This document shows positions 30,703-48,538 of a stretch of DNA of 64,000 nt, in pieces. The DNA lies in assembly GCA_005772955.1 (NCBI GenBank), contig SXID01000029.1, forward strand, positions 1-64,000, given 5' to 3'. The DNA is from Planctomycetia bacterium (GTDB taxonomy: Bacteria > Planctomycetota > Planctomycetia > Gemmatales > Gemmataceae). The notes beneath the pieces are model-generated. The model was not told where the DNA came from, did not search any database, and worked only from the letters and a program-made list of their open reading frames with translations. The translations under genes and the position numbers were made by a program. The stretch's first letter is position 1. The number at the start of each line of letters is the position of its first letter.

Positions 30703-31044
30703 TTAATGTTTCGCGGGACCGAGCGCGATGCTTCCGCCGCGCGAGTCGGTGAGCGTACCGTTCACGCGAACCTCGAACGAGGTCGCGTAGCCGAACGGCG
30801 CTTCGCGCGACCACAGGTTCGGTTCGGGAATCACGCATCTGAGTGACAATGCGTTGTCACTTAACTTCGCCACCGTGAAGGGATAGACCACTTCGACAGT
30901 CGAGATAGTGGCGCACCGCGGGCCGACGGCACGGCCGCGGACTTCGCACTCCGCTGCGGGACCGCTCAATTCGATGTGAATGAGGATCTCCGCCGCGGCT
31001 TGCGAGCAGCGCACCGGTTCCATTCGTATCGACAGAATCTTCAT
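30703..31044 (-). CDS. Small beta-sandwich hypothetical protein downstream of queA
   Basis: 113 residues. The start overlaps the queA stop as TAATG, so it is translated with queA. The C-terminal part, VVYPFTV followed later by IPEPNLWSREAPFGY and VRVNG, resembles the immunoglobulin-like domain that ends at the active site of family 2 glycoside hydrolases, but no catalytic part is present. It may be a fragment or a stand-alone beta-sandwich domain. Translational coupling to queA and the adjacent short-chain dehydrogenase suggest a three-gene unit. Confidence 0.6.
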   Translation of the reverse strand: MKILSIRMEPVRCSQAAAEILIHIELSGPAAECEVRGRAVGPRCATISTVEVVYPFTVAKLSDNALSLRCVIPEPNLWSREAPFGYATSFEVRVNGTLTDSRGGSIALGPAKH

Positions 31045-32096
31045 TACAGCACCAGCATCGCGTCACCGTAGCTGAAGAACCGGTACTCGCGCAACACGGC
31101 TTCGGCGTAGGCTTGTTGTAACAGATCGCTGCCCGCGATCGCGCCAACCAGAAGCAAGAGTGTGGTTCGCGGCAGGTGGAAGTTGGTCACGATCGCATCG
31201 ACCGCGCGGAACTCAAACGGCTCGTGAATGAAGAGATTAGTCGCGCCGCAGAACGGGTGTATTTTCCCCTCTCCCGCAAGGGGAGCGGGCAAAACAGAAT
31301 AGTGTGCCGCGCTCTCAAGGGTACGGGTCGTGGTCGTGCCAACCGCGACCACGCGACCGCCCTGGGCCTTCGTCGCGCGGATCGCATCGACGGCGTCCTG
31401 AGTCACTTCGCACCATTCCGCGTGAATGACGTGCTGCGTCGGGTCTTCCACTTTCACCGGGGCGAACGTGCCCAGGCCGACGTGCAGCGTGACACGCGCC
31501 GTGCCGATGCCCTTTGAACGAAGCCGGGCGAACACCGCGGGCGTGACGTGCAGTCCGGCCGTTGGCGCCGCGACCGAACCGGCCGCGTTCGCGTACACGG
31601 TCTGGTAGCGCTCGCGATCAGCGTCTTCTTCGCGGCCTTTGCGAATGTACGGCGGCAGCGGAATGTGCCCGTATCGCGCGAGCAGTTCCGGTGGCGTGCC
31701 TTCTTCAGCGACTTCCATGAGCCAGTGACGATCCGTCGTGCGCCCGCGAAGCACCAGGCGGAGATTCGTGTCGGTGACGAACGCGGTGCCAAGTTCGGGG
31801 TAACTACGCGTTTGGGCGAGCATCTCCCACAGTCCACCTTCACTCACGCGGAGGAACAAGCCTTCCCACTTCCCGCCAGTCGATTCGCGCCGACCCACCA
31901 ACCGCGCCGGAAGCACTCGCGTGTCGTTCAGCACGACGAGGTCGCCAGGCGCGAGGAGGTCGGGGAGGTCGCGGAACGTGCGGTGTTCGATCAAGCGCGC
32001 GGCGCGATGCACGACGAGCAGCCTAGCTGCGTCGCGCTCGGCTGCCGGGTGCTGTGCGATCAGATGTTCGGGCAGGTGGTAATCGAAGAAGGGCAT
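31044..32096 (-). CDS. queA: tRNA preQ1(34) S-adenosylmethionine ribosyltransferase-isomerase QueA, with an inserted peptide
   Basis: QueA transfers the ribosyl part of S-adenosylmethionine to preQ1 in tRNA, making epoxyqueuosine. The 350-residue protein has the family features: N-terminal YHLPEHLIAQHP, NDTRVLPARL, LHVGLGTFAPV, TTTTRTLESAA, VTNFHLPRTTLLLLV and the C-terminal FFSYGDAML. Between LESAA (residues 260-264) and IHPF (279-282) there are about seven more residues than in E. coli QueA. The extra DNA is a palindrome (CCCTCTCCCGCAAGGGGAG, 31267-31285) that is also present between genes at 48515-48533. The ATG at 32096 was chosen. Confidence 0.93.
   Translation of the reverse strand: MPFFDYHLPEHLIAQHPAAERDAARLLVVHRAARLIEHRTFRDLPDLLAPGDLVVLNDTRVLPARLVGRRESTGGKWEGLFLRVSEGGLWEMLAQTRSYPELGTAFVTDTNLRLVLRGRTTDRHWLMEVAEEGTPPELLARYGHIPLPPYIRKGREEDADRERYQTVYANAAGSVAAPTAGLHVTPAVFARLRSKGIGTARVTLHVGLGTFAPVKVEDPTQHVIHAEWCEVTQDAVDAIRATKAQGGRVVAVGTTTTRTLESAAHYSVLPAPLAGEGKIHPFCGATNLFIHEPFEFRAVDAIVTNFHLPRTTLLLLVGAIAGSDLLQQAYAEAVLREYRFFSYGDAMLVL
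31266..31289. repeat. Palindrome inside queA
   Basis: A 19-base stretch (CCCTCTCCCGCAAGGGGAG) identical to part of the intergenic repeat at 48515-48537. It is translated within queA as LPAPLAGEG. Confidence 0.85.
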
Positions 32097-32117
32097 GGGA
32101 GGAGTGATTTGGCGAGC

Positions 32118-32195
32118 GGGGGGCGTAAGCCCCCTGATGCGTTGAGTGGCGAATGGCGCGAGAAGCAATCAGGGGGCTTACGCCCCCCACTCACC
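32118..32195. repeat. Inverted repeat between queA and the following secreted protein gene
   Basis: Arms containing GGGGGGCGTAAGCCCCCTGA and its complement, each also self-complementary, separated by about 37 bases. No gene in the 107-bp gap. Confidence 0.85.
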
Positions 32196-32203
32196 CAAGA
32201 CGA

Positions 32204-32752
32204 TCACTTGAAGTTCTTCAGCCACTCGTCGAAGTCTTTCTTGTGCTTCTCGACGGTCTTCGTGGGACCGAGAAGCGTGAGCGAGAGTACCGCGTCCTTA
32301 CCCTGCGCGTCCTTGCCCTCGAAGATGACGTAAATCTGACGGTAGTTCTCGACCCGCGTGATCTTCGCGTTCGGGTCGAACGGTGGGAACTTCTTCAGCA
32401 GCGTGCCCTTGATGTCCTGGTAGGTGGCTTCTTCCTTGACGATTTTCAACTTCATCACGGCCGGCTTCGCGTCCTTGCCCAACTCGAACTTCTTCACCTG
32501 GCGTTCGAGGTTGGCGTCGATGGAGCCGCCGCCAGGCGAGACGAAGAGCGCGAGTTCCGCGTCTTCCGGGTCGCCCTTTTCTTTCGCGAGTTTGAACTGC
32601 GCCACCCGCATCGTGTTCGATGGCGTCTCTTCTTTCCACCCGGCCGGGGTGGTGGACTTCACGTTGCCCCACTGGACCGCAACACCCTTGTCTTGGGCGC
32701 TCGCGCCGACCGCGACGACCGCAGCCAACACAGAAGCGAACAGCATACGCAT
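32204..32752 (-). CDS. Secreted hypothetical protein
   Basis: 182 residues with a signal peptide (MRMLFASVLAAVVAVGASA). The mature part has a WKEETPSNTMRVAQFKL strand, ALFVSPGGGSIDANL and a YVIFEGKDAQGKDAVLSL hairpin, with a Lys-rich helical C-terminus (VEKHKKDFDEWLKNFK). The pattern is that of a small periplasmic domain of the kind often annotated as hypothetical in planctomycetes. A three-residue longer start at 32761 is possible. No family or function is recognised. Confidence 0.65.
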   Translation of the reverse strand: MRMLFASVLAAVVAVGASAQDKGVAVQWGNVKSTTPAGWKEETPSNTMRVAQFKLAKEKGDPEDAELALFVSPGGGSIDANLERQVKKFELGKDAKPAVMKLKIVKEEATYQDIKGTLLKKFPPFDPNAKITRVENYRQIYVIFEGKDAQGKDAVLSLTLLGPTKTVEKHKKDFDEWLKNFK

Positions 32753-32831
32753 GGCAAACATCCCCTGGGAAGGAACATGCGAGTTCCGATACCGTGGGAC
32801 ATTCTACGCGCGAACGCGAACCGGGCACGGT

Positions 32832-33110
32832 TCAATCCGCCGCGTGTGGGATTGGGGTTGCTGCCGCAGGGACGGTGAACTCAGCCGGCGTGGTTGCGTC
32901 GAACGGCAAGCCGACCGGTTGGCCCAGTAGCGGGTCGAGTAGCGGCTCCGTGTCGGTCACTTCGACGACGTGCGCCAACACGACCGGTTCCGATATCGTC
33001 AGCACGACCGGTTCTTGCGGCATCGGGACCGGCTTCGAGAAGAACGCGAAGTGAACCACCGCGTAGCCCGCCAGCGTTCCCAGCGTGCTAATCAGTATCA
33101 GCTTCCGCAT
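32832..33110 (-). CDS. Small membrane-anchored hypothetical protein
   Basis: 92 residues with an N-terminal hydrophobic helix (LILISTLGTLAGYAVVHFAF) and a Pro/Val/Glu-rich tail, probably exposed outside the membrane. No conserved domain is visible. It is weakly supported: length, codon use and a plausible start speak for it. Confidence 0.5.
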   Translation of the reverse strand: MRKLILISTLGTLAGYAVVHFAFFSKPVPMPQEPVVLTISEPVVLAHVVEVTDTEPLLDPLLGQPVGLPFDATTPAEFTVPAAATPIPHAAD

Positions 33111-33174
33111 GACCGCTCCTTTTGCACGTTAACGGAAGCGCGTGGAATAGCGACACCTGGAAATCGGGGCAAGC

Positions 33175-34200
33175 TCAACCGCGGACCGGTTGCCGCTCGG
33201 CGATGGACAACCGCGTGAGCCACTCGCGAAGGAACGCGGCGCGCTCGCGGGCCGCGGCTTCCGCTTCTTCTGACGTGACTCGCACGAACTGCACGCGATC
33301 ACCAGGCCGCAGTTGCGCGAGTCGGTCGAGATCGGCGCGAATGACGTGTGCAATCTTCGGGTAGCCGCCGATGGTCTGCCCGTCCACGCCGAGCACGATC
33401 GGCAACCCGTCGTTGGCGACCTGCACCGCACCGGGCGCTACCGCTTCCGAGACGAGTTCGCCCGGTCTGCGTGCCAGCGGTGTCCCCTTCAGCCGAAGGC
33501 CCATGCGGTTGCTCGCGGGCGAAACCACGTATTCTTGCGCGAAGAAGCTGTCGTCGGTGAACCAGTCGCGCTGCGGACCGTCGAGAACGCGGAGAGGGAG
33601 TAACCCCTCCCCAACCCCTCCCCTAAGAAGGGAGGGGCTTTCGGCAGCAGACAGAACGCGCGCTGCCCCTTCTTCTCTTGCTCCCCCTCCCTTCTTAGGG
33701 GAGGGGGTTGGGGGGAGAGGTTCTTCCACCCACGCGAACGCTAGCCCTCTGGCCTCCGTCTGGCTCGCCTCGCACGCAAGCGTGTCTCCTGCGCGGAGCG
33801 GTTCAATCGCTGAGCGGCTGCCGTGAACTTCCGGCGCGTCGAAGCCACCCGCGACGCACAGGTACGCTCTCACGCCGGTGAGCGTGCCGCCGACGCGGAG
33901 TACATCGCCGGGGTCAAGCGTGAACGTGGTGCCGACCGCGACCGGGGTACCGTTCACGGTAGCCTGGAACGGCGCGCCAAAGAGCACGCACGCGGTCCGG
34001 TGAAGTGCCTCGACGGTCGGCCCCGCGAACGCGGCTTCGAGCGCGACCGTGTTCGGTGCGTTCCCTACAAGCGCGTTGCCGAGCGCGAGCGCGGCGCGAT
34101 CCGCCGCGCCGCCGACCGGCACGCCAAGCGCCCGTGAGCGCTCGCGACCGAAATCGACGAGAAGTGATTGCAGTCCAGGTTCGCGAACGAGCAGACTCAT
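33175..34200 (-). CDS. pxpC: 5-oxoprolinase subunit C, with an inserted peptide
   Basis: Component of the ATP-dependent 5-oxoproline hydrolase (PxpABC), which turns 5-oxoproline into glutamate. The 341 residues match the biotin-dependent carboxyltransferase-like PxpC fold: GLQSLLVDFGR, GVPVGGAADRAALALGNALVGN, LRVLDGPQRDWF and NRMGLRLKGTPL. Residues of about 162-203 (LPPTPSPKKGGG to GVGEGLLP) are extra compared with the family and are encoded by an inverted repeat (33603-33720). The ATG overlaps the pxpA stop as ATGA. The two-gene unit lacks pxpB. Confidence 0.9.
   Translation of the reverse strand: MSLLVREPGLQSLLVDFGRERSRALGVPVGGAADRAALALGNALVGNAPNTVALEAAFAGPTVEALHRTACVLFGAPFQATVNGTPVAVGTTFTLDPGDVLRVGGTLTGVRAYLCVAGGFDAPEVHGSRSAIEPLRAGDTLACEASQTEARGLAFAWVEEPLPPTPSPKKGGGAREEGAARVLSAAESPSLLRGGVGEGLLPLRVLDGPQRDWFTDDSFFAQEYVVSPASNRMGLRLKGTPLARRPGELVSEAVAPGAVQVANDGLPIVLGVDGQTIGGYPKIAHVIRADLDRLAQLRPGDRVQFVRVTSEEAEAAARERAAFLREWLTRLSIAERQPVRG
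33603..33720. repeat. Inverted repeat inside pxpC
   Basis: Left arm ending CCCCTAAGAAGGGAGGGG (to 33636) and right arm from 33683 complementary to it, each also partly self-complementary. It is similar to the intergenic repeat at 42188-42315 (shared CCCCAACCCCT text). Translated in frame without a stop codon. Confidence 0.85.
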
Positions 34201-34898
34201 GCGAACGCCTTGAGCGTGAACCCTTTCGACAGCATCGCCGCGCGAACGGCCTTCGTGAACGCGACCGCGTCGGGGTTGTCGCCGTGCACGCAGATCGTCC
34301 GCACGCCCTTTTCGCGCACGAGCCATTCCACTTGCTTCACGGCTTCGTTGGGATCGTGTACGAACGCGTCCGACTCCGTGCGCGGCACGAGCGACCCATC
34401 CGGTCGGTAACGCCGGTCCGCGAACCCTTCCGCAACGAATGGGTACTCGTGATCCTTCGCGGCGGCTTCGATTTGTGAGTTCGGCAGACCCAGCACCGGG
34501 AGATCGTCGAAGCCTTCGGCCGCTTCAATGATTCCGCAGGCGAGGTCGAAGTCGCGACACGCCTGGTTGTACAACGCTCCGTGTGCCTTCACGTAACTGA
34601 GTCTGTACCCCATTCCGGTCGCGAGCGCGGACAACCCGCCAAGTTGCTGAAGACACAACACGAACACATCGTGTGAGGTGACCGCTTGCTCGACGCGGCC
34701 GAAGTTGGCGCGGTCCGCGAACCCCGGATGCGCCCCAACGACGACACCGTGTTTTTGCGCGAGTTGGAGCGTCCGCCACAGTTCACTCGGCGACCCCGCG
34801 TGCGCGCCGCAGCAGACGTTCGCGGACGTAACCAGCGGCATCAGTTCGGCGTCGAAGCCGGCGCCTTCTCCGAGGTCCGCGTTCAGGTCGATTTCCAT
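34197..34898 (-). CDS. pxpA: 5-oxoprolinase subunit A (LamB/YcsF family)
   Basis: 233 residues from the ATG at 34898, which has AGGTGAG seven bases before it. The N-terminal IDLNADLGEG is diagnostic, followed by VCCGAHAGSPSELWRT, GAHPGFADRANFGR, the VKAHGALYNQ block and the ICVHGDNPDAV motif at the C-terminus. Together with PxpB and PxpC it forms the 5-oxoprolinase complex. It lies nine bases after uppP and overlaps pxpC, so the three are one operon. Confidence 0.93.
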   Translation of the reverse strand: MEIDLNADLGEGAGFDAELMPLVTSANVCCGAHAGSPSELWRTLQLAQKHGVVVGAHPGFADRANFGRVEQAVTSHDVFVLCLQQLGGLSALATGMGYRLSYVKAHGALYNQACRDFDLACGIIEAAEGFDDLPVLGLPNSQIEAAAKDHEYPFVAEGFADRRYRPDGSLVPRTESDAFVHDPNEAVKQVEWLVREKGVRTICVHGDNPDAVAFTKAVRAAMLSKGFTLKAFA

Positions 34899-34907
34899 GA
34901 CGCTCAC

Positions 34908-35750
34908 CTACTTCAGCACGCCGGCCGCGAGCATCGCGAAGATCGCCGCCGCGAGCACAAGCCGGTACACGACAAACACCGCCATACTGTACCGCTTCAG
35001 GAAGTTCAGCAGGCACGCGATCGCGAGGTAACCCACCACCGCCGACACCAGCAACCCGACCGCGAGTGACACGACTTGATCCGACGCGAACAGCGAAGCG
35101 CGCTCGTCGTACATCTCCTTCGCTCCGGCACCGAGAATCGCCGGCAGCGAGAGCAGGAACGAGAACCGCGCCGCGGCCGGACGCGCCAGCCCCGCGAACA
35201 GCCCAGCCGTGATCGTCGTACCCGACCGCGACCCGCCCGGCATCAGTGCAAGCGCCTGGAACAGGCCGATCCAGAGGGCATCGCGCCAACCGATCTCGGA
35301 TTCCTCACGCGGCAACAGTCCGCGTCGCGTGCGTCGTCGTGCCCACCACTCCGACCAAGCCATCAAGAGCGCGAACACGATCGCCACGACCGCGATCGAC
35401 GTGGGATTGAAGAAAGTCTCCTTCAACCACGTCTTGCAGAAGAAACCGATCAACACAACGGGTACGGTACCGAACACGATGAGCCAGCCAAGACGCGAGT
35501 CGCGCGTACTCGCGAACCGCCGCGCACGGATGTCCGCGACCAGACCTTTCCACATCCGCACGATGTCCGTTCGGAAGTACACGAATACCGCTGCAAGCGT
35601 GCCGAGTTGGATCACCACCGTGAACGCGTCTTCGGGCTTCTTGTGACCGAGCAACTGCCGCGCGACCAGAAGGTGTGCCGTGCTGCTGATCGGGAGAAAC
35701 TCGGTCAGTCCTTGAATTATCCCGAGTAACGCCGCTTCCCAGATGGGCAT
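34908..35750 (-). CDS. uppP: Undecaprenyl-diphosphatase UppP
   Basis: 280 residues with about eight hydrophobic helices. The BacA/UppP signatures are clear: GIIQGLTEFLPISSTAHL near the N-terminus and PGGSRSGTTITAGL in the middle, with the catalytic Glu, Ser and Arg in these segments. The enzyme recycles undecaprenyl pyrophosphate for cell envelope synthesis. The ATG at 35750 was chosen; the open frame beyond overlaps the divergent neighbour. First gene of the uppP-pxpA-pxpC unit, a combination without obvious metabolic logic. Confidence 0.93.
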   Translation of the reverse strand: MPIWEAALLGIIQGLTEFLPISSTAHLLVARQLLGHKKPEDAFTVVIQLGTLAAVFVYFRTDIVRMWKGLVADIRARRFASTRDSRLGWLIVFGTVPVVLIGFFCKTWLKETFFNPTSIAVVAIVFALLMAWSEWWARRRTRRGLLPREESEIGWRDALWIGLFQALALMPGGSRSGTTITAGLFAGLARPAAARFSFLLSLPAILGAGAKEMYDERASLFASDQVVSLAVGLLVSAVVGYLAIACLLNFLKRYSMAVFVVYRLVLAAAIFAMLAAGVLK

Positions 35751-35802
35751 TCCCTCTCTCCGGTCAGTAAGATGATTCGGACGCCCTTTCCCGGAACTTT
35801 CC

Positions 35803-36261
35803 ATGCGCGCCGCCCGTCTCATCGTTCTAGCGACCGCCGCGACCGCGGGCACGCTGCTCGCGTCCGGCAGTGCTCGCGCGCACGACATCAACGCAACCGT
35901 CAAAGTCGGTGCGGATGGAATCCGCGTGGAGGTGTTCTTTGAAGAAGTCGTGCCAGCCGAGTTCGCGACGGTGAGCGTGAGCGACGCGAACGGTTCCGAG
36001 GTCGTCGCGGGAACCACCGACGCGAACGGTGTGTGGACGTTCCCCGCACCCGCGCCGGGCGAGTACCTCCTCACCGCGAAGTGCATCGGACACGTCGCGA
36101 AGGTGAAGTTCTCGATCGCCGGCACTCCGCCCGTGCCAGAGGCGCCGCCCGTCTCCTACACGGGTTACCGGTTGAACAAGGCCGTTGGTCTGACCGTTGG
36201 CGTCGGCGGATTGCTCGGCGCGTCCGCATTGTTGTGGTTGTTCCGCCGCCGGCGCGAGTGA
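35803..36261 (+). CDS. Secreted membrane-anchored beta-sandwich protein
   Basis: 152 residues: signal peptide (LIVLATAATAGTLLASGSARA), a beta-rich domain with VRVEVFFEEVVPAEFATVSVSD and TDANGVWTFPAPAPGEY, typical of transthyretin-like or nickel-transport-like modules, then a C-terminal membrane helix (LTVGVGGLLGASALLWLF) followed by RRRRE. The domain resembles those that feed metals to transporters, but this is only a fold impression. It stands between uppP and the large kinase gene, with the latter starting 32 bp downstream. Confidence 0.65.
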   Translation: MRAARLIVLATAATAGTLLASGSARAHDINATVKVGADGIRVEVFFEEVVPAEFATVSVSDANGSEVVAGTTDANGVWTFPAPAPGEYLLTAKCIGHVAKVKFSIAGTPPVPEAPPVSYTGYRLNKAVGLTVGVGGLLGASALLWLFRRRRE

Positions 36262-36292
36262 AAATAGCGTAACCAGCTCCCGGAGCAGTTCC

Positions 36293-39200
36293 GTGCCGCC
36301 TGCCGACGACAGAACCCGCGCCGACCTGCCGGACAACACCATCTCCGGCCGCGACGACATCCCGCTGACGGACGGCGCCACGTCCGGCGCCGAATCGTTC
36401 CTTCGTCTCCTGAAGCGCGCCGCGCCGTCCGTGGCTCTCCCGTCTACGCCCGCACTATTCCCCACCATCCCCGATTACGAGATTGAGTGCGAACTCGGGC
36501 GCGGCGGTATGGGGGTCGTCTACAAGGCGCGCCACGTCCCGCTGAACCGCATCGTCGCGATCAAGATGATCCTGACCTCCGAACACGCGACAGCGAGCGA
36601 GATCGCGCGGTTTCGCGCTGAGGCCGAAGCGATCGCCGCAATCAAGCACGCGAACGTGGTGCAGGTATACGACCTTGGCCCGGAGGGGTGTACACGCCCG
36701 TACTTCGCGATGGAGTACGTCGCGGGCGGGAGCCTCGCCAAGTTTCTCAAGGCAAACGGTCGCCAGTCCCCAACAGCCGCAGCCGAACTGCTCGCGGCGG
36801 TCGCCGACGGCCTCCAGGCCGCACACGACGCGGGCATCGTTCACCGCGACATCAAGCCGGCCAACATTCTTCTCGCGAAGGACGAAGGACGAAGGACGAA
36901 GGATGAACAAACGAGCCAAGCCGTTTCTGGTTCTGATTCATCCTTCATCCTTTATCCTTCCTCCTTCGCGAGGCCGAAGGTGTCCGACTTCGGCCTCGCG
37001 AAGCGGCTCGCGTCGGACGTTACTCGCACGATGGCGCCGGCGGGAACCCCGGCGTACATGGCCCCGGAACAGGCCGGCGGGAAGTCGAAGTACGTCGGCC
37101 CCGGCGCGGACGTGTACTCGCTCGGCGCAGTGCTCTACGAATGTCTCACCGGCGCGCCGCCGTTCGAGGGAACTGACCAGTGGGAAGTCGTCGAGCAGGT
37201 GCTGACCACGCAGCCCGTGTCGCCACGCTCCGTCGTGCCCGCGGTGCCGCGCGATCTGGAGTTGATCTGCCTCACGTGTCTAGAGAAGGAGCCGCACCAC
37301 CGGTATCACAGCGCCGCGGCCCTGGCCGACGACCTGCGCCGGTTCCTCGCGGGAAAGCCGGTCAGCGTGCGGCCAATCGGCCCCGTCACACGCACCTCGC
37401 GGTGGGCGAAGCGGCGCCCGACCGCGGCCGCGCTGGTCGCGCTCGTCGCGGCCGTGTGCTTCGCGGTGCCGGCGGCGATCGTGTGGACCGTGGGCGAGAG
37501 CGAACAGCACGCGACCGAAACGGCCGCCGCGAAGGACCGAGAAGACGCGGCGCGTGAAGAGGAACGCCTGGCCCGAATCGCGGAGGAGCAACAGAGGCTG
37601 GCCCGAATCGAAGCCGACAAGGCCGCAGCCGCGGCGCTCCGGCTCGCCGACGTGCGAGACCTGTTCGCAATTCAGAACAAGCTTCACAGCCGCATCGCAG
37701 ACCGGCCGCTGTCGTGGACGTATGCAAACCGCGCGGACCTGCTGAAAGCGGTGATGCTCGCGGCCGGCGAACCAACCGCAGTGGGCGAACTTCGCTCGGC
37801 CGCGGCTGTCGCGTTCCTGTCTGCCGACCTGAAGCCGCTTCCCGTGGTCATGAAGGGGTTCACCGCGTCAGCCGCCGCGACCGACCCGAAAACCGGCCGA
37901 ATCGCGGTCGGCGAGTACCTGTTCCGGTTCTCCGGGCGCGTGCGACTGATCGACCCCGCGACCGGGGAATCCGTGCGCGAACTGGTTGCCCCCGCGGGTT
38001 GGGTGAACACGCAACCGGACAGCGTGCGCGCACTCGCGTTCAGCCCCGATGGCAAGTACCTGTTCGTCGGGTTGCGCAGTTCCACCGTACTCCGGTTCGA
38101 TCTTGACACGCCCGAGAACAAGCCCTCGAAGACGTGGAAAGCGTCCACGAGTCCGGTTGAACAACTCACCGTCAGTCCCGACGGAGCAACCGTGTACGGG
38201 TTGTGCCGCCCGGAGAAACCGGTGTTCGCGTGGGCTACCGACACCGGGAAGTTGGTCGCGAAACTCGAACCTTCGACGGAGGCGCCGTTCGGGTCGTTCG
38301 CGGTCCTCGCAACCGGCGACGTGATCGCGTGCGACACCCACCAGATTCGGCGCTGGACCCCGGACCACAATCTCGTGCAAACGGTCCCGAACTGTGGCGC
38401 GCGGCGGCTCGCGCCCACGGGCGCCGGCGCGCTGCTTGTCGGAGACGGCCGCAACCTCGACGTCTACGACCGCGACACGCTCGTTCCCCTCGATCGATTC
38501 GTGACCTCCGAGTTGCGCCGCGGTGTTCACGAGGAATACGTCAGAACCATCGTGGTCCACCCGTCGGGCGCGTTCGTAGCGACCTCGTCTGGCGACGTGG
38601 ATCGCACCGTGCGGGTTTGGGAACTCGCGTCTGGCCGTCTCGTCGGCACGGTCACAGCCACCGGAACCGGGCCGATCGCGCTCGCGTGGGCGGGCGACGG
38701 CCGATCGCTCTACGCCACGGCGAGCGATCACCTGGCGCGGTGGGTGTTCCGCGCGGCCGAGGCGCAGCGGTTCGCGTGCCAGAGCGGGTCGCCGGTCGAA
38801 GCCGCGTCGTTCATTTCGAGCGACCGGGTCGCGGCGCTCACCGACCCAATCGGGCCGCATCGCGAACTGCTCGTGGGCACGCCCGGCAACGCGGCAACCT
38901 CCGCTCACGTCCCCGAACGCGGTGGGAACGGGCGCCCCGGCGTCGCCGCTTCTCCCGGCGGCGCACTCGTGGTCAGTGCGGGTTCGCCGGGCCTCGTCGC
39001 GTGGGAACCAGGTGCGCCGGTGCCGCCTGCGGCGTTCACGACCAATATCACCCGGTGTCCGCGGTTCGGCCCGGACGGATGCACGCTGTGGGCGATCGTG
39101 TCCTCGTCTAATGTCGTCGCGTTCGACCCGGTCACGAAGAAGCCTCGCTCGACCTGGAGCAACGCGGTCGAGGGCGCGACACGCGGCCTCGCGAGCCTGG

Positions 39201-39700
39201 ACACGCTCGCGATCGGCCCGACCCTCGTGGTCGCGGGCGGGCGGAGCGGTTCGGTTCACCTGCTCGACGCGGCGACGGGTCAATTCGCCGCATCGTTCTC
39301 AACATTCGGCGACCCGGTGCTGTCGGTCACGCTCTCGCCGGACGAGTTGCTCGTTGTCGCGGGCACGCAAACCGGCAAGTTGCGGGTGATTCGGACGTGC
39401 GATCGCGAGGAATTGCCCGCGGTGATGGCGCACCCCGGCGGCGTGACGGCGGTCTCGGTGAGCCACGACGGGTCGCTGCTTGCAACCGGTGGCCAGGATC
39501 GCGTGGTGCGGCTGTGGAAACGAACTGGCGACCGGTTCGAGCCGGTACTCGCGGTGTCCGACCTGAGCGGTCCGGTGCGCGGACTCCAGTTCGGTGCCGA
39601 CGACCGGTTACTGGTGCTGATCGCGCACGAGCGTGCGGTTCGCGTGTGGGACGTGGACCGACTGAAGACGCAACTGGGTCGATTCAGGCTCGCATGGTAA
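36293..39700 (+). CDS. Ser/Thr protein kinase with WD40 beta-propeller and a peptide insert
   Basis: 1135 residues from a GTG with CGGAG upstream. The N-terminal Hanks-type kinase has the Gly loop GRGGMG (69-74), Lys91, HRD (184-186) and DFG (232-234). The HRD to DFG spacing is 48 residues, about 28 more than usual; the surplus, KDEGRRTKDEQ to LYPSSFA, is encoded by a palindromic repeat at 36876-36968. A membrane helix (AAALVALVAAVCFAVPAAI) follows near residue 385, then a long linker and WD40 repeats to the C-terminus, presumably outside the cytoplasm. Gemmata-type genomes carry dozens of kinase-WD40 fusions. Signal and targets are unknown. Confidence 0.9.
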   Translation: MPPADDRTRADLPDNTISGRDDIPLTDGATSGAESFLRLLKRAAPSVALPSTPALFPTIPDYEIECELGRGGMGVVYKARHVPLNRIVAIKMILTSEHATASEIARFRAEAEAIAAIKHANVVQVYDLGPEGCTRPYFAMEYVAGGSLAKFLKANGRQSPTAAAELLAAVADGLQAAHDAGIVHRDIKPANILLAKDEGRRTKDEQTSQAVSGSDSSFILYPSSFARPKVSDFGLAKRLASDVTRTMAPAGTPAYMAPEQAGGKSKYVGPGADVYSLGAVLYECLTGAPPFEGTDQWEVVEQVLTTQPVSPRSVVPAVPRDLELICLTCLEKEPHHRYHSAAALADDLRRFLAGKPVSVRPIGPVTRTSRWAKRRPTAAALVALVAAVCFAVPAAIVWTVGESEQHATETAAAKDREDAAREEERLARIAEEQQRLARIEADKAAAAALRLADVRDLFAIQNKLHSRIADRPLSWTYANRADLLKAVMLAAGEPTAVGELRSAAAVAFLSADLKPLPVVMKGFTASAAATDPKTGRIAVGEYLFRFSGRVRLIDPATGESVRELVAPAGWVNTQPDSVRALAFSPDGKYLFVGLRSSTVLRFDLDTPENKPSKTWKASTSPVEQLTVSPDGATVYGLCRPEKPVFAWATDTGKLVAKLEPSTEAPFGSFAVLATGDVIACDTHQIRRWTPDHNLVQTVPNCGARRLAPTGAGALLVGDGRNLDVYDRDTLVPLDRFVTSELRRGVHEEYVRTIVVHPSGAFVATSSGDVDRTVRVWELASGRLVGTVTATGTGPIALAWAGDGRSLYATASDHLARWVFRAAEAQRFACQSGSPVEAASFISSDRVAALTDPIGPHRELLVGTPGNAATSAHVPERGGNGRPGVAASPGGALVVSAGSPGLVAWEPGAPVPPAAFTTNITRCPRFGPDGCTLWAIVSSSNVVAFDPVTKKPRSTWSNAVEGATRGLASLDTLAIGPTLVVAGGRSGSVHLLDAATGQFAASFSTFGDPVLSVTLSPDELLVVAGTQTGKLRVIRTCDREELPAVMAHPGGVTAVSVSHDGSLLATGGQDRVVRLWKRTGDRFEPVLAVSDLSGPVRGLQFGADDRLLVLIAHERAVRVWDVDRLKTQLGRFRLAW
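36876..36968. repeat. Inverted repeat inside the kinase catalytic domain
   Basis: Left arm made of four CGAAGGA units (36876-36906) and right arm TTCATCCTTCATCCTTTATC onward (36938-36968), about complementary. The translation is open and sits between HRD and DFG, on the surface loop after the catalytic strand. Confidence 0.8.
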
Positions 39701-42187: not shown

Positions 42188-42315
42188 CTAACCCCCAACC
42201 CCTTTCCCTTCAGGGAAGGGGGAGCAAAACCACCTCTCGTTAACACTCGCGTGCAACCTGCAACCGACTCGTGCATTGCTCCCCCTTCCCTGAAGGGAAA
42301 GGGGTTGGGGGTTAG
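42188..42315. repeat. Inverted repeat, 39-bp arms, relative of the pxpC insert
   Basis: Arms 42188-42226 and 42277-42315 are almost perfect complements, with text CTAACCCCCAACCCCTTTCC. It shares CCCCAACCCCT and the CCCTTCAGGGAAGGGG core with the repeats inside pxpC and the membrane protein gene at 15605. It lies 11 bases after the stop of the kinase-FGE gene. Confidence 0.9.
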
Positions 42316-48391: not shown

Positions 48392-48408
48392 GCACTGACT
48401 CTGCTTGC

Positions 48409-48538
48409 CATCTCCCCTTGCGGGAGATGGTGGTCGGCGCTTCGCCGACCGGGTGAGGGGTGAAGTTTACCGCGAGTGAAGCCTTTCCCCTCACCCCGCC
48501 GCGAAGCGCGGCGACCCTCTCCCGCAAGGGGAGAGGGC
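48409..48538. repeat. Composite palindrome between the thioredoxin/NHL and DsbD-alpha genes
   Basis: Nested palindromes: CATCTCCCCTTGCGGGAGATG, TCGGCGCTTCGCCGA, and the right-hand unit CCCTCTCCCGCAAGGGGAG (48515-48533), identical over 19 bases to the insert in queA. The element ends 15 bases before the ribosome-binding site of the next gene. Confidence 0.9.

Follow-up and report, generated by a model that had tools for sequence, protein, structure and literature searches.

Dispersed palindromic elements lying in frame within protein-coding genes of a Gemmataceae planctomycete

The DNA analysed here, referred to as the window, comprises 64,000 nucleotides of contig SXID01000029.1 (positions 1 to 64,000, forward strand) from the Planctomycetia bacterium assembly GCA_005772955.1, assigned to the Gemmataceae. 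Three unrelated genes in the window, queA, pxpC and a Ser/Thr kinase gene, contain in-frame inserts made of palindromic repeats that recur throughout the genome (Table 1). DNA comparisons within the genome and across relatives indicate that such inserts are translated and that selection maintains their frame. A sequence-only reading of the window had proposed that palindromes of kinds otherwise found between genes were inserted into all three. This description fits pxpC and the kinase gene, which hold complete palindromes; the queA insert is a single arm and not a full element. As the same reading had stated, the three inserts are in frame and their frames stay open.

Palindromic inserts in queA, pxpC and a kinase gene

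For each of the three inserts, numerous related DNA copies exist at other places in the genome. The solo arm in queA makes the protein about 10 residues longer than the empty site of the sister species (genome G001), and its 19-nt core, CCCTCTCCCGCAAGGGGAG, occurs in 44 exact genome copies and in 101 when up to 2 mismatches are allowed; a reversed control pattern gave 0. The arms of the pxpC element (33606-33637 and 33684-33715) are 91% complementary, and a whole-genome search with this element returned 103 matches. The arms of the kinase palindrome are 78-88% complementary, with matches at about 20 further genome locations. All three inserts occupy places where length varies among relatives, as had been supposed from the sequence: a QueA loop before the motif (F/C)xGxT, the PxpC loop joining the two half-domains, and, in the kinase, the turn that NILL precedes and PKVSDFG follows. 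Palindromes also lie between genes in the window, one of them upstream of queA.

Table 1. Coordinates of host genes, inserts and intergenic palindromes in the window, and of RAYT loci elsewhere
Feature	Location	Strand	Remarks
queA (S-adenosylmethionine:tRNA ribosyltransferase-isomerase)	31044..32096	-	start ATG 32096; Pfam PF02547 E=4e-122; PDB 1vky E=3e-97
queA insert, solo arm of family A, TTTTGCCCGCTCCCCTTGCGGGAGAGGGGAAAA	31262..31294 (about)	-	peptide VLPAPLAGEGK
Family-D palindrome, GGGGGCTTACGCCCCC arms	32114..32192	.	upstream of queA, intergenic counterpart
pxpC (5-oxoprolinase subunit C / KipA-like)	33175..34200	-	Pfam CT_A_B E=2e-75
pxpC insert, complete two-armed family-B element	33600..33727 (about)	-	peptide EEPLPPTPSPKKGGGA...ESPSLLRGGVGEGL
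Ser/Thr kinase with C-terminal WD-like repeats	36293..39700	+
Kinase insert, complete family-C palindrome (heptad GAAGGAY)	36872..36972	+	peptide KDEGRRTKDE...SDSSFILYPSSFAR; beta7-beta8 turn
Palindrome related to family B/B2, arms 40 nt	42188..42315	.	intergenic
Family-A element, complete, its two inverted arms separated by about 102 bp	48407..48538	.	intergenic
RAYT beside family H (GTAGTCATCACGCTCCGCGTGA)	L386, inverted repeats 885-977, 987-1061, 1785-1886, 1906-1997
RAYT beside family E	L385
RAYT beside GTTTAGCGTT palindromes	L387
RAYT beside GTAGCCGCGAC palindromes	L388		GTAG type

Element families and reading frames across the genome

The genome amounts to 5.93 Mb in 278 contigs, of which 1.99 Mb, about a third, was sampled. 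This sample contains 449-452 inverted repeats scoring at least 15; since 0.86 Mb of codon-shuffled sequence contains 0, a chance origin is excluded. The repeats fall into several families: A (CCCTCTCCCCTTGCGGGAGAGGG arms), B (CCCCTCCCCTAAGAAGGGAGGGG), B2 (CCCTGAAGGG / CCCCAACCCC variants), C (7-nt repeats such as GAAGGAT), D (GGGGGCTTACGCCCCC) and E-I. Elements of A, B and B2 consist of two inverted arms, each itself a hairpin; A and B measure about 100-130 bp and are present in tens to more than 100 copies. Family D likewise has two inverted palindromic arms. The arms of family C form no hairpin; they face each other over 5-90 nt, and 25 of the 28 periodic arms have a period of 7. Heptamer-armed inverted repeats occur at many places in the genome (for example C234:99435, C30:36863, C203:27979, C178:7172 and C5:13713), with mutually unrelated heptamers that include GAAGGAT, GTTGCGA, GTTTGGT, GTTCCAA and GTGGGCA, and period 7 outnumbers all other periods. 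We found no account of this inverted tandem-heptamer arrangement in the literature.

Forty-eight inverted repeats of repeated families lie wholly within called genes, with at least 90 nt on either side. Extrapolation gives a rough figure of about 140 in-gene copies per genome, from a sample biased to element-bearing contigs. Families differ in where they reside: 44% of A/B/B2 copies are in genes (32/72), compared with 5% (4/74) for the mostly intergenic families E-I (p=2e-8), and for family B the share is about 63% (19/30). The elements have entered unrelated host genes, many of them core; the hosts include the genes for SMC (insert in the hinge), MutL (in a linker), RsmB, QueG, PxpC and QueA. 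In pyruvate dehydrogenase E2 the insert lies between the lipoyl and E3-binding domains, and further hosts are a polyprenyl synthetase, a Mur-ligase-type enzyme, an aldehyde dehydrogenase, an acyltransferase/AMP-ligase fusion, glycosyltransferases and kinases. The predicted peptides recur from host to host: EPLPPTPSPKKGGG...SPSLLRGGVGEG, EPLPPTPSPKKGGG...SPSLLRGGVGEGL and ...TPPPFLGEGVGGRGS for family B, PSPLAGEGGES...PSPARGEGK for family A, and GGRMKDE...SSFILHPSSF for family C. Some hosts contain more than one element. The MutL linker (mutL, L111:1530-3587) holds two different adjacent palindromes, one of family B at residues 415-446 and one of the GTTTAGCGTT type at about residues 464-486. 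A 2282-residue protein (L178:11954-18799, contig C169) holds three in-frame palindromes, of families D, A and B, one of which is missing at L332.

The in-frame bias of in-gene copies, which the sequence-only reading had left to be examined, is strong in two tests. In one, the element itself was omitted and the flank on either side was scored for its frame separately. Every family-B copy between coding flanks is in frame and stop-free (16/16), as are 7/9 copies of family A; the corresponding cases for the mostly intergenic families mainly show a frameshift or a stop, which is what the space between two genes should give. Intergenic copies of family B are stop-free in 44% of readings, giving a null expectation of about 0.14 per copy for being both in frame and open, and (0.14)^16 = 3e-14 for all sixteen. 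Two of the core frames of family B run into TAA or TAG, and no copy uses them.

The other test compared the lengths of element sites with those of orthologous sites in relatives, and is independent of gene calling within the element. Inside genes, the length difference is a multiple of three in 31/32 comparisons and for 19/19 elements (p=9e-10); between genes, the figure is 8/27. One apparent exception compares the kinase gene with L251, a fragment with a frame broken upstream, from a genome that is 68% complete. Another is element 325, near an adenine phosphoribosyltransferase gene whose true start is probably downstream of the element. Because in-gene lengths change by threes, family B is open and the sites turn over among relatives, these comparisons argue that the inserts are translated and held in frame.

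Turnover, distribution and neighbouring transposase genes

Neither the QueA nor the PxpC insert is common to all orthologues. The QueA site is empty in G001 and in most other relatives, yet G015 and G004 have full family-A elements there and G003 another remnant. Since the junctions in these three genomes differ by a few codons, the same QueA loop was probably struck more than once. The PxpC site is filled in G000, G001, G012, G007, G009 and G016, and empty in six species (G015, G010, G014, G008, G004 and G013). A tree built from QueA and PxpC with the insert columns removed requires the QueA site to have changed state at least 4 times and the PxpC site at least 3 times. The PxpC element is also inverted between G007 (C1, about 80.9 kb; L277) and G009 (C1, about 434 kb; L288), genomes that are 91% identical: the two copies match with a score of 155 in opposite orientation vs 47 in the same orientation, the best of 100 shuffles reaching 23. 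In G009 the element is nested within a second element, and both genes are open.

Other sites behave similarly. The SMC hinge insert aligns through in G001, G015, G007 and G012, and the site is empty in G010, G011, G004 and G005, where the two halves are merely 6-15 residues apart. The family-A element at C169:16318-16443, in the gene of the 2282-residue protein, is absent in L332, where the proteins read EMLP|YWLHN at the site in an alignment judged by eye. The kinase turn holds palindromes of different heptamers in different species (GACGAAG, GGAACGC, GTGGGCA).

The families also differ in range. The family-B core is abundant in its own genome and in three sampled congeners (G001, G012, G007); it occurs once in a fourth, and a further genus of the family has it too. 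In the remainder of the 149 genomes sampled from the class, it is found at most once per genome. The matches listed from 84,980 species are to planctomycetes, including Gemmataceae and Gemmata sp. IIL30, and to two Bacteroidales contigs. The named planctomycetes, together with the congeners, put the genome of the window in or close to Gemmata. The two Bacteroidales contigs (L352 and L357) belong to metagenome-assembled genomes of Bacteroidaceae/Prevotellaceae and are probably mis-binned planctomycete DNA. Family A is patchy in the class (20/99 genomes, 13/60 genera), which suggests horizontal spread; its arm (CCCTCTCCCCTTGCGGGAGAGGG) reaches tens of copies in members of several of the families that make up the class. 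The GAAGGAT heptad is present in 5/99 genomes. Family B, concentrated in congeners, thus looks young and local, and family A, found across the class, is widespread.

The genome has RAYT (Y1_Tnp) genes. Five of eight RAYT loci were inspected: four adjoin palindromes of other, mostly intergenic families (Table 1), and the fifth adjoins none. Y1_Tnp was considered as the mover of families A, B and C and set aside on the evidence of these five loci, the genes there standing beside other families or none. Loci L385-L388 are candidate planctomycete REPIN/RAYT pairs in their own right. A search confined to Y1_Tnp found no parent transposon for the elements.

Interpretation and relation to known repeat systems

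We propose that non-autonomous dispersed palindromes of several families enter both genes and intergenic DNA, and that the in-gene copies are very probably translated as 10-50 extra residues. Insertion would be roughly frame-blind, with about 1 in 7 insertions in frame and open. Purifying selection would then remove copies that shift the frame, meet stops or land in structured parts of the protein, so that the survivors would be found in loops at the surface and in linkers between domains, where their length may drift by steps of three. The insert peptides would have no common function; they may be tolerated passengers, occasionally perhaps recruited.

The nearest competing view is that these are ordinary REPINs or miniature inverted-repeat transposable elements (MITEs) that occasionally land in genes, in families no different from the usual intergenic repeats. 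The plan of two inverted palindromic arms is the same, the genome has RAYT genes with palindromes of other families beside four of the five inspected, and the patchy occurrence of family A resembles that of mobile REPs. Set against this are the in-gene shares of family B and of A/B/B2 relative to E-I, the inspected RAYT loci, which bear H, E and GTTTAGCGTT/GTAG types and not A, B or C, and the heptad arms, which lack hairpins. We regard this view as a possibility to be taken seriously, though on balance a doubtful one. A local origin of immobile elements, by slippage or template switching in length-tolerant loops, appears improbable overall. The heptad class, with its period-7 arms, could grow by slippage and template switching, the sites do tolerate changes of length, and the different heptamers in one kinase turn across species fit such an origin for family C. 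It does not account for A and B, whose near-identical arms stand at dozens of unrelated sites, with clean empty sites and two intact arms.

It is also conceivable that intron-like excision or ribosomal bypassing takes the palindromes out, either ahead of translation or in its course, leaving proteins that lack them; the long GC-rich hairpins in coding mRNA do recall bypass elements. Such removal needs neither lengths in threes nor an absence of stops, yet both are observed. Because the multiple-of-three rule holds in genes only, and RNA removal or bypassing would not yield it, translation through the insert is the sole explanation that fits, and we consider removal very improbable. Even less credible is an artefact of assembly or binning. 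The metagenome-assembled genome is in many contigs and the two Bacteroidales matches look mis-binned, but similar in-frame inserts stand at orthologous positions in genomes of a single or few contigs (G007, G012).

Several observations weigh against the proposal that dispersed elements enter genes and are translated there. The evidence is drawn from the comparison of DNA sequences. The genome sample was taken mainly from element-bearing contigs, and its 1376 genes (86% of the sample) were called by a codon model of our own, with long open frames as its training set, and not by a standard gene finder. The stop-free fraction of family B is equal in intergenic and in-gene copies (44-45%), giving no sign that the element itself is suited to a coding role. 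A comparison of G007 with G009 over 105 kb, made in search of young insertions, turned up only six indels of at least 30 bp, one of them informative, so present-day movement is slow or absent. No transposase could be tied to A, B or C, none of the five inspected RAYT loci adjoining these families, and no clean target-site duplication was seen at aligned empty sites.

Rickettsia and Wolbachia, both parasites, are the best-known carriers of translated palindromes within genes; such palindromes have been described as peculiar to the two, often with reference to reduced intracellular genomes. Rickettsia palindromic elements (RPEs) were reportedly described by Ogata et al. in 2000 and 2002, and an RPE insert is said to have been shown in an expressed protein, the Rickettsia guanylate kinase, an enzyme reportedly assayed both with its insert and without it. 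The sequence-only reading had likened the planctomycete inserts to RPEs. The behaviour is indeed the same: in both groups, as in Wolbachia, dispersed palindromes of about 60-150 bp form several coexisting, sequence-distinct families with recurring peptides, some sites are reused, and a large share lies in frame inside unrelated conserved genes. Some RPE families are often genic, as B and A are here, and some mainly intergenic, as are E-I. Ten RPE families are described, with palindromes 105-146 bp long; of the R. conorii copies about half sit in frame within genes, and Wolbachia has elements of a similar kind (PMC10969869, PMC2229807, PMC3767692). Families A and B have the RPE format, a length of about 100-150 bp and inverted repeats at the ends; the queA copy, a solo arm, does not by itself. 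Unlike RPEs, the planctomycete elements are GC-rich, reside in a free-living host and include nested and inverted in-frame copies, and the three inserts in the window represent two architectural classes, with inverted hairpin arms (A/B) and inverted 7-nt repeats (C). Their estimated number in genes, given above, compares with 19 reported for R. conorii. By this comparison the elements appear to work like RPEs; we do not file them as RPEs, as the comparison is one of behaviour.

Other known repeats share part of the pattern. REPINs and REP-BIMEs with RAYT (PMC3116915, PMC2817692, PMC3733652) resemble A, B and B2 in having two inverted hairpin arms around a variable spacer, and the present genome has RAYT genes, beside other palindrome families. 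They differ in that A and B are often in genes and so are not extragenic, their arms show no visible GTAG/CGTC tag, no cognate RAYT was found at the 5 inspected loci, and the heptad arms of family C form no hairpin. The Correia 107-bp, ERIC/RU-1 and YPAL/RU-2 elements are mainly intergenic, most having terminal inverted repeats and target duplications (PMC2229807, PMC2759123). These MITEs are likewise small inverted-repeat elements with frames fused into host genes, whereas the elements here lie mostly in internal loops of conserved enzymes and show no clear target duplication at aligned empty sites. Bacterial heptameric simple sequence repeats (PMC4692102) have the 7-nt period in common with family C; the heptads described here differ in forming two inverted arms around a spacer of 5-90 nt and in comprising several unrelated heptamers. 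We found no paper on planctomycete in-gene palindromes in the open-access literature, where absence is no proof.

A further-reaching idea, which we offer tentatively and think unlikely to hold in full, is that Gemmata and its neighbours harbour palindromic mobile DNA of a class of its own, with its main niche inside protein-coding genes. Unrelated families, one of them made of inverted heptamers, would repeatedly invade the same loops and linkers, nest, flip and resize in frame, and would thereby feed new loops to core proteins by a mechanism not yet described.

Some consequences are practical. Annotators meeting PPTPSPKKGGG, SPSLLRGGVGEG or SSFILHPSSF in planctomycete proteins would be looking at translated repeats and not at domains. 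About 18 sequenced congeners let insertion, decay, inversion and loop recruitment be traced site by site, and Gemmata sp. IIL30, a named strain, also bears the repeat. For the biology of the group, coding palindromes at an estimated hundred-plus sites in the 6 Mb genome of a free-living planctomycete, with core hosts such as SMC, MutL, RsmB and pyruvate dehydrogenase E2, would mean that an intracellular lifestyle is not required for such elements.

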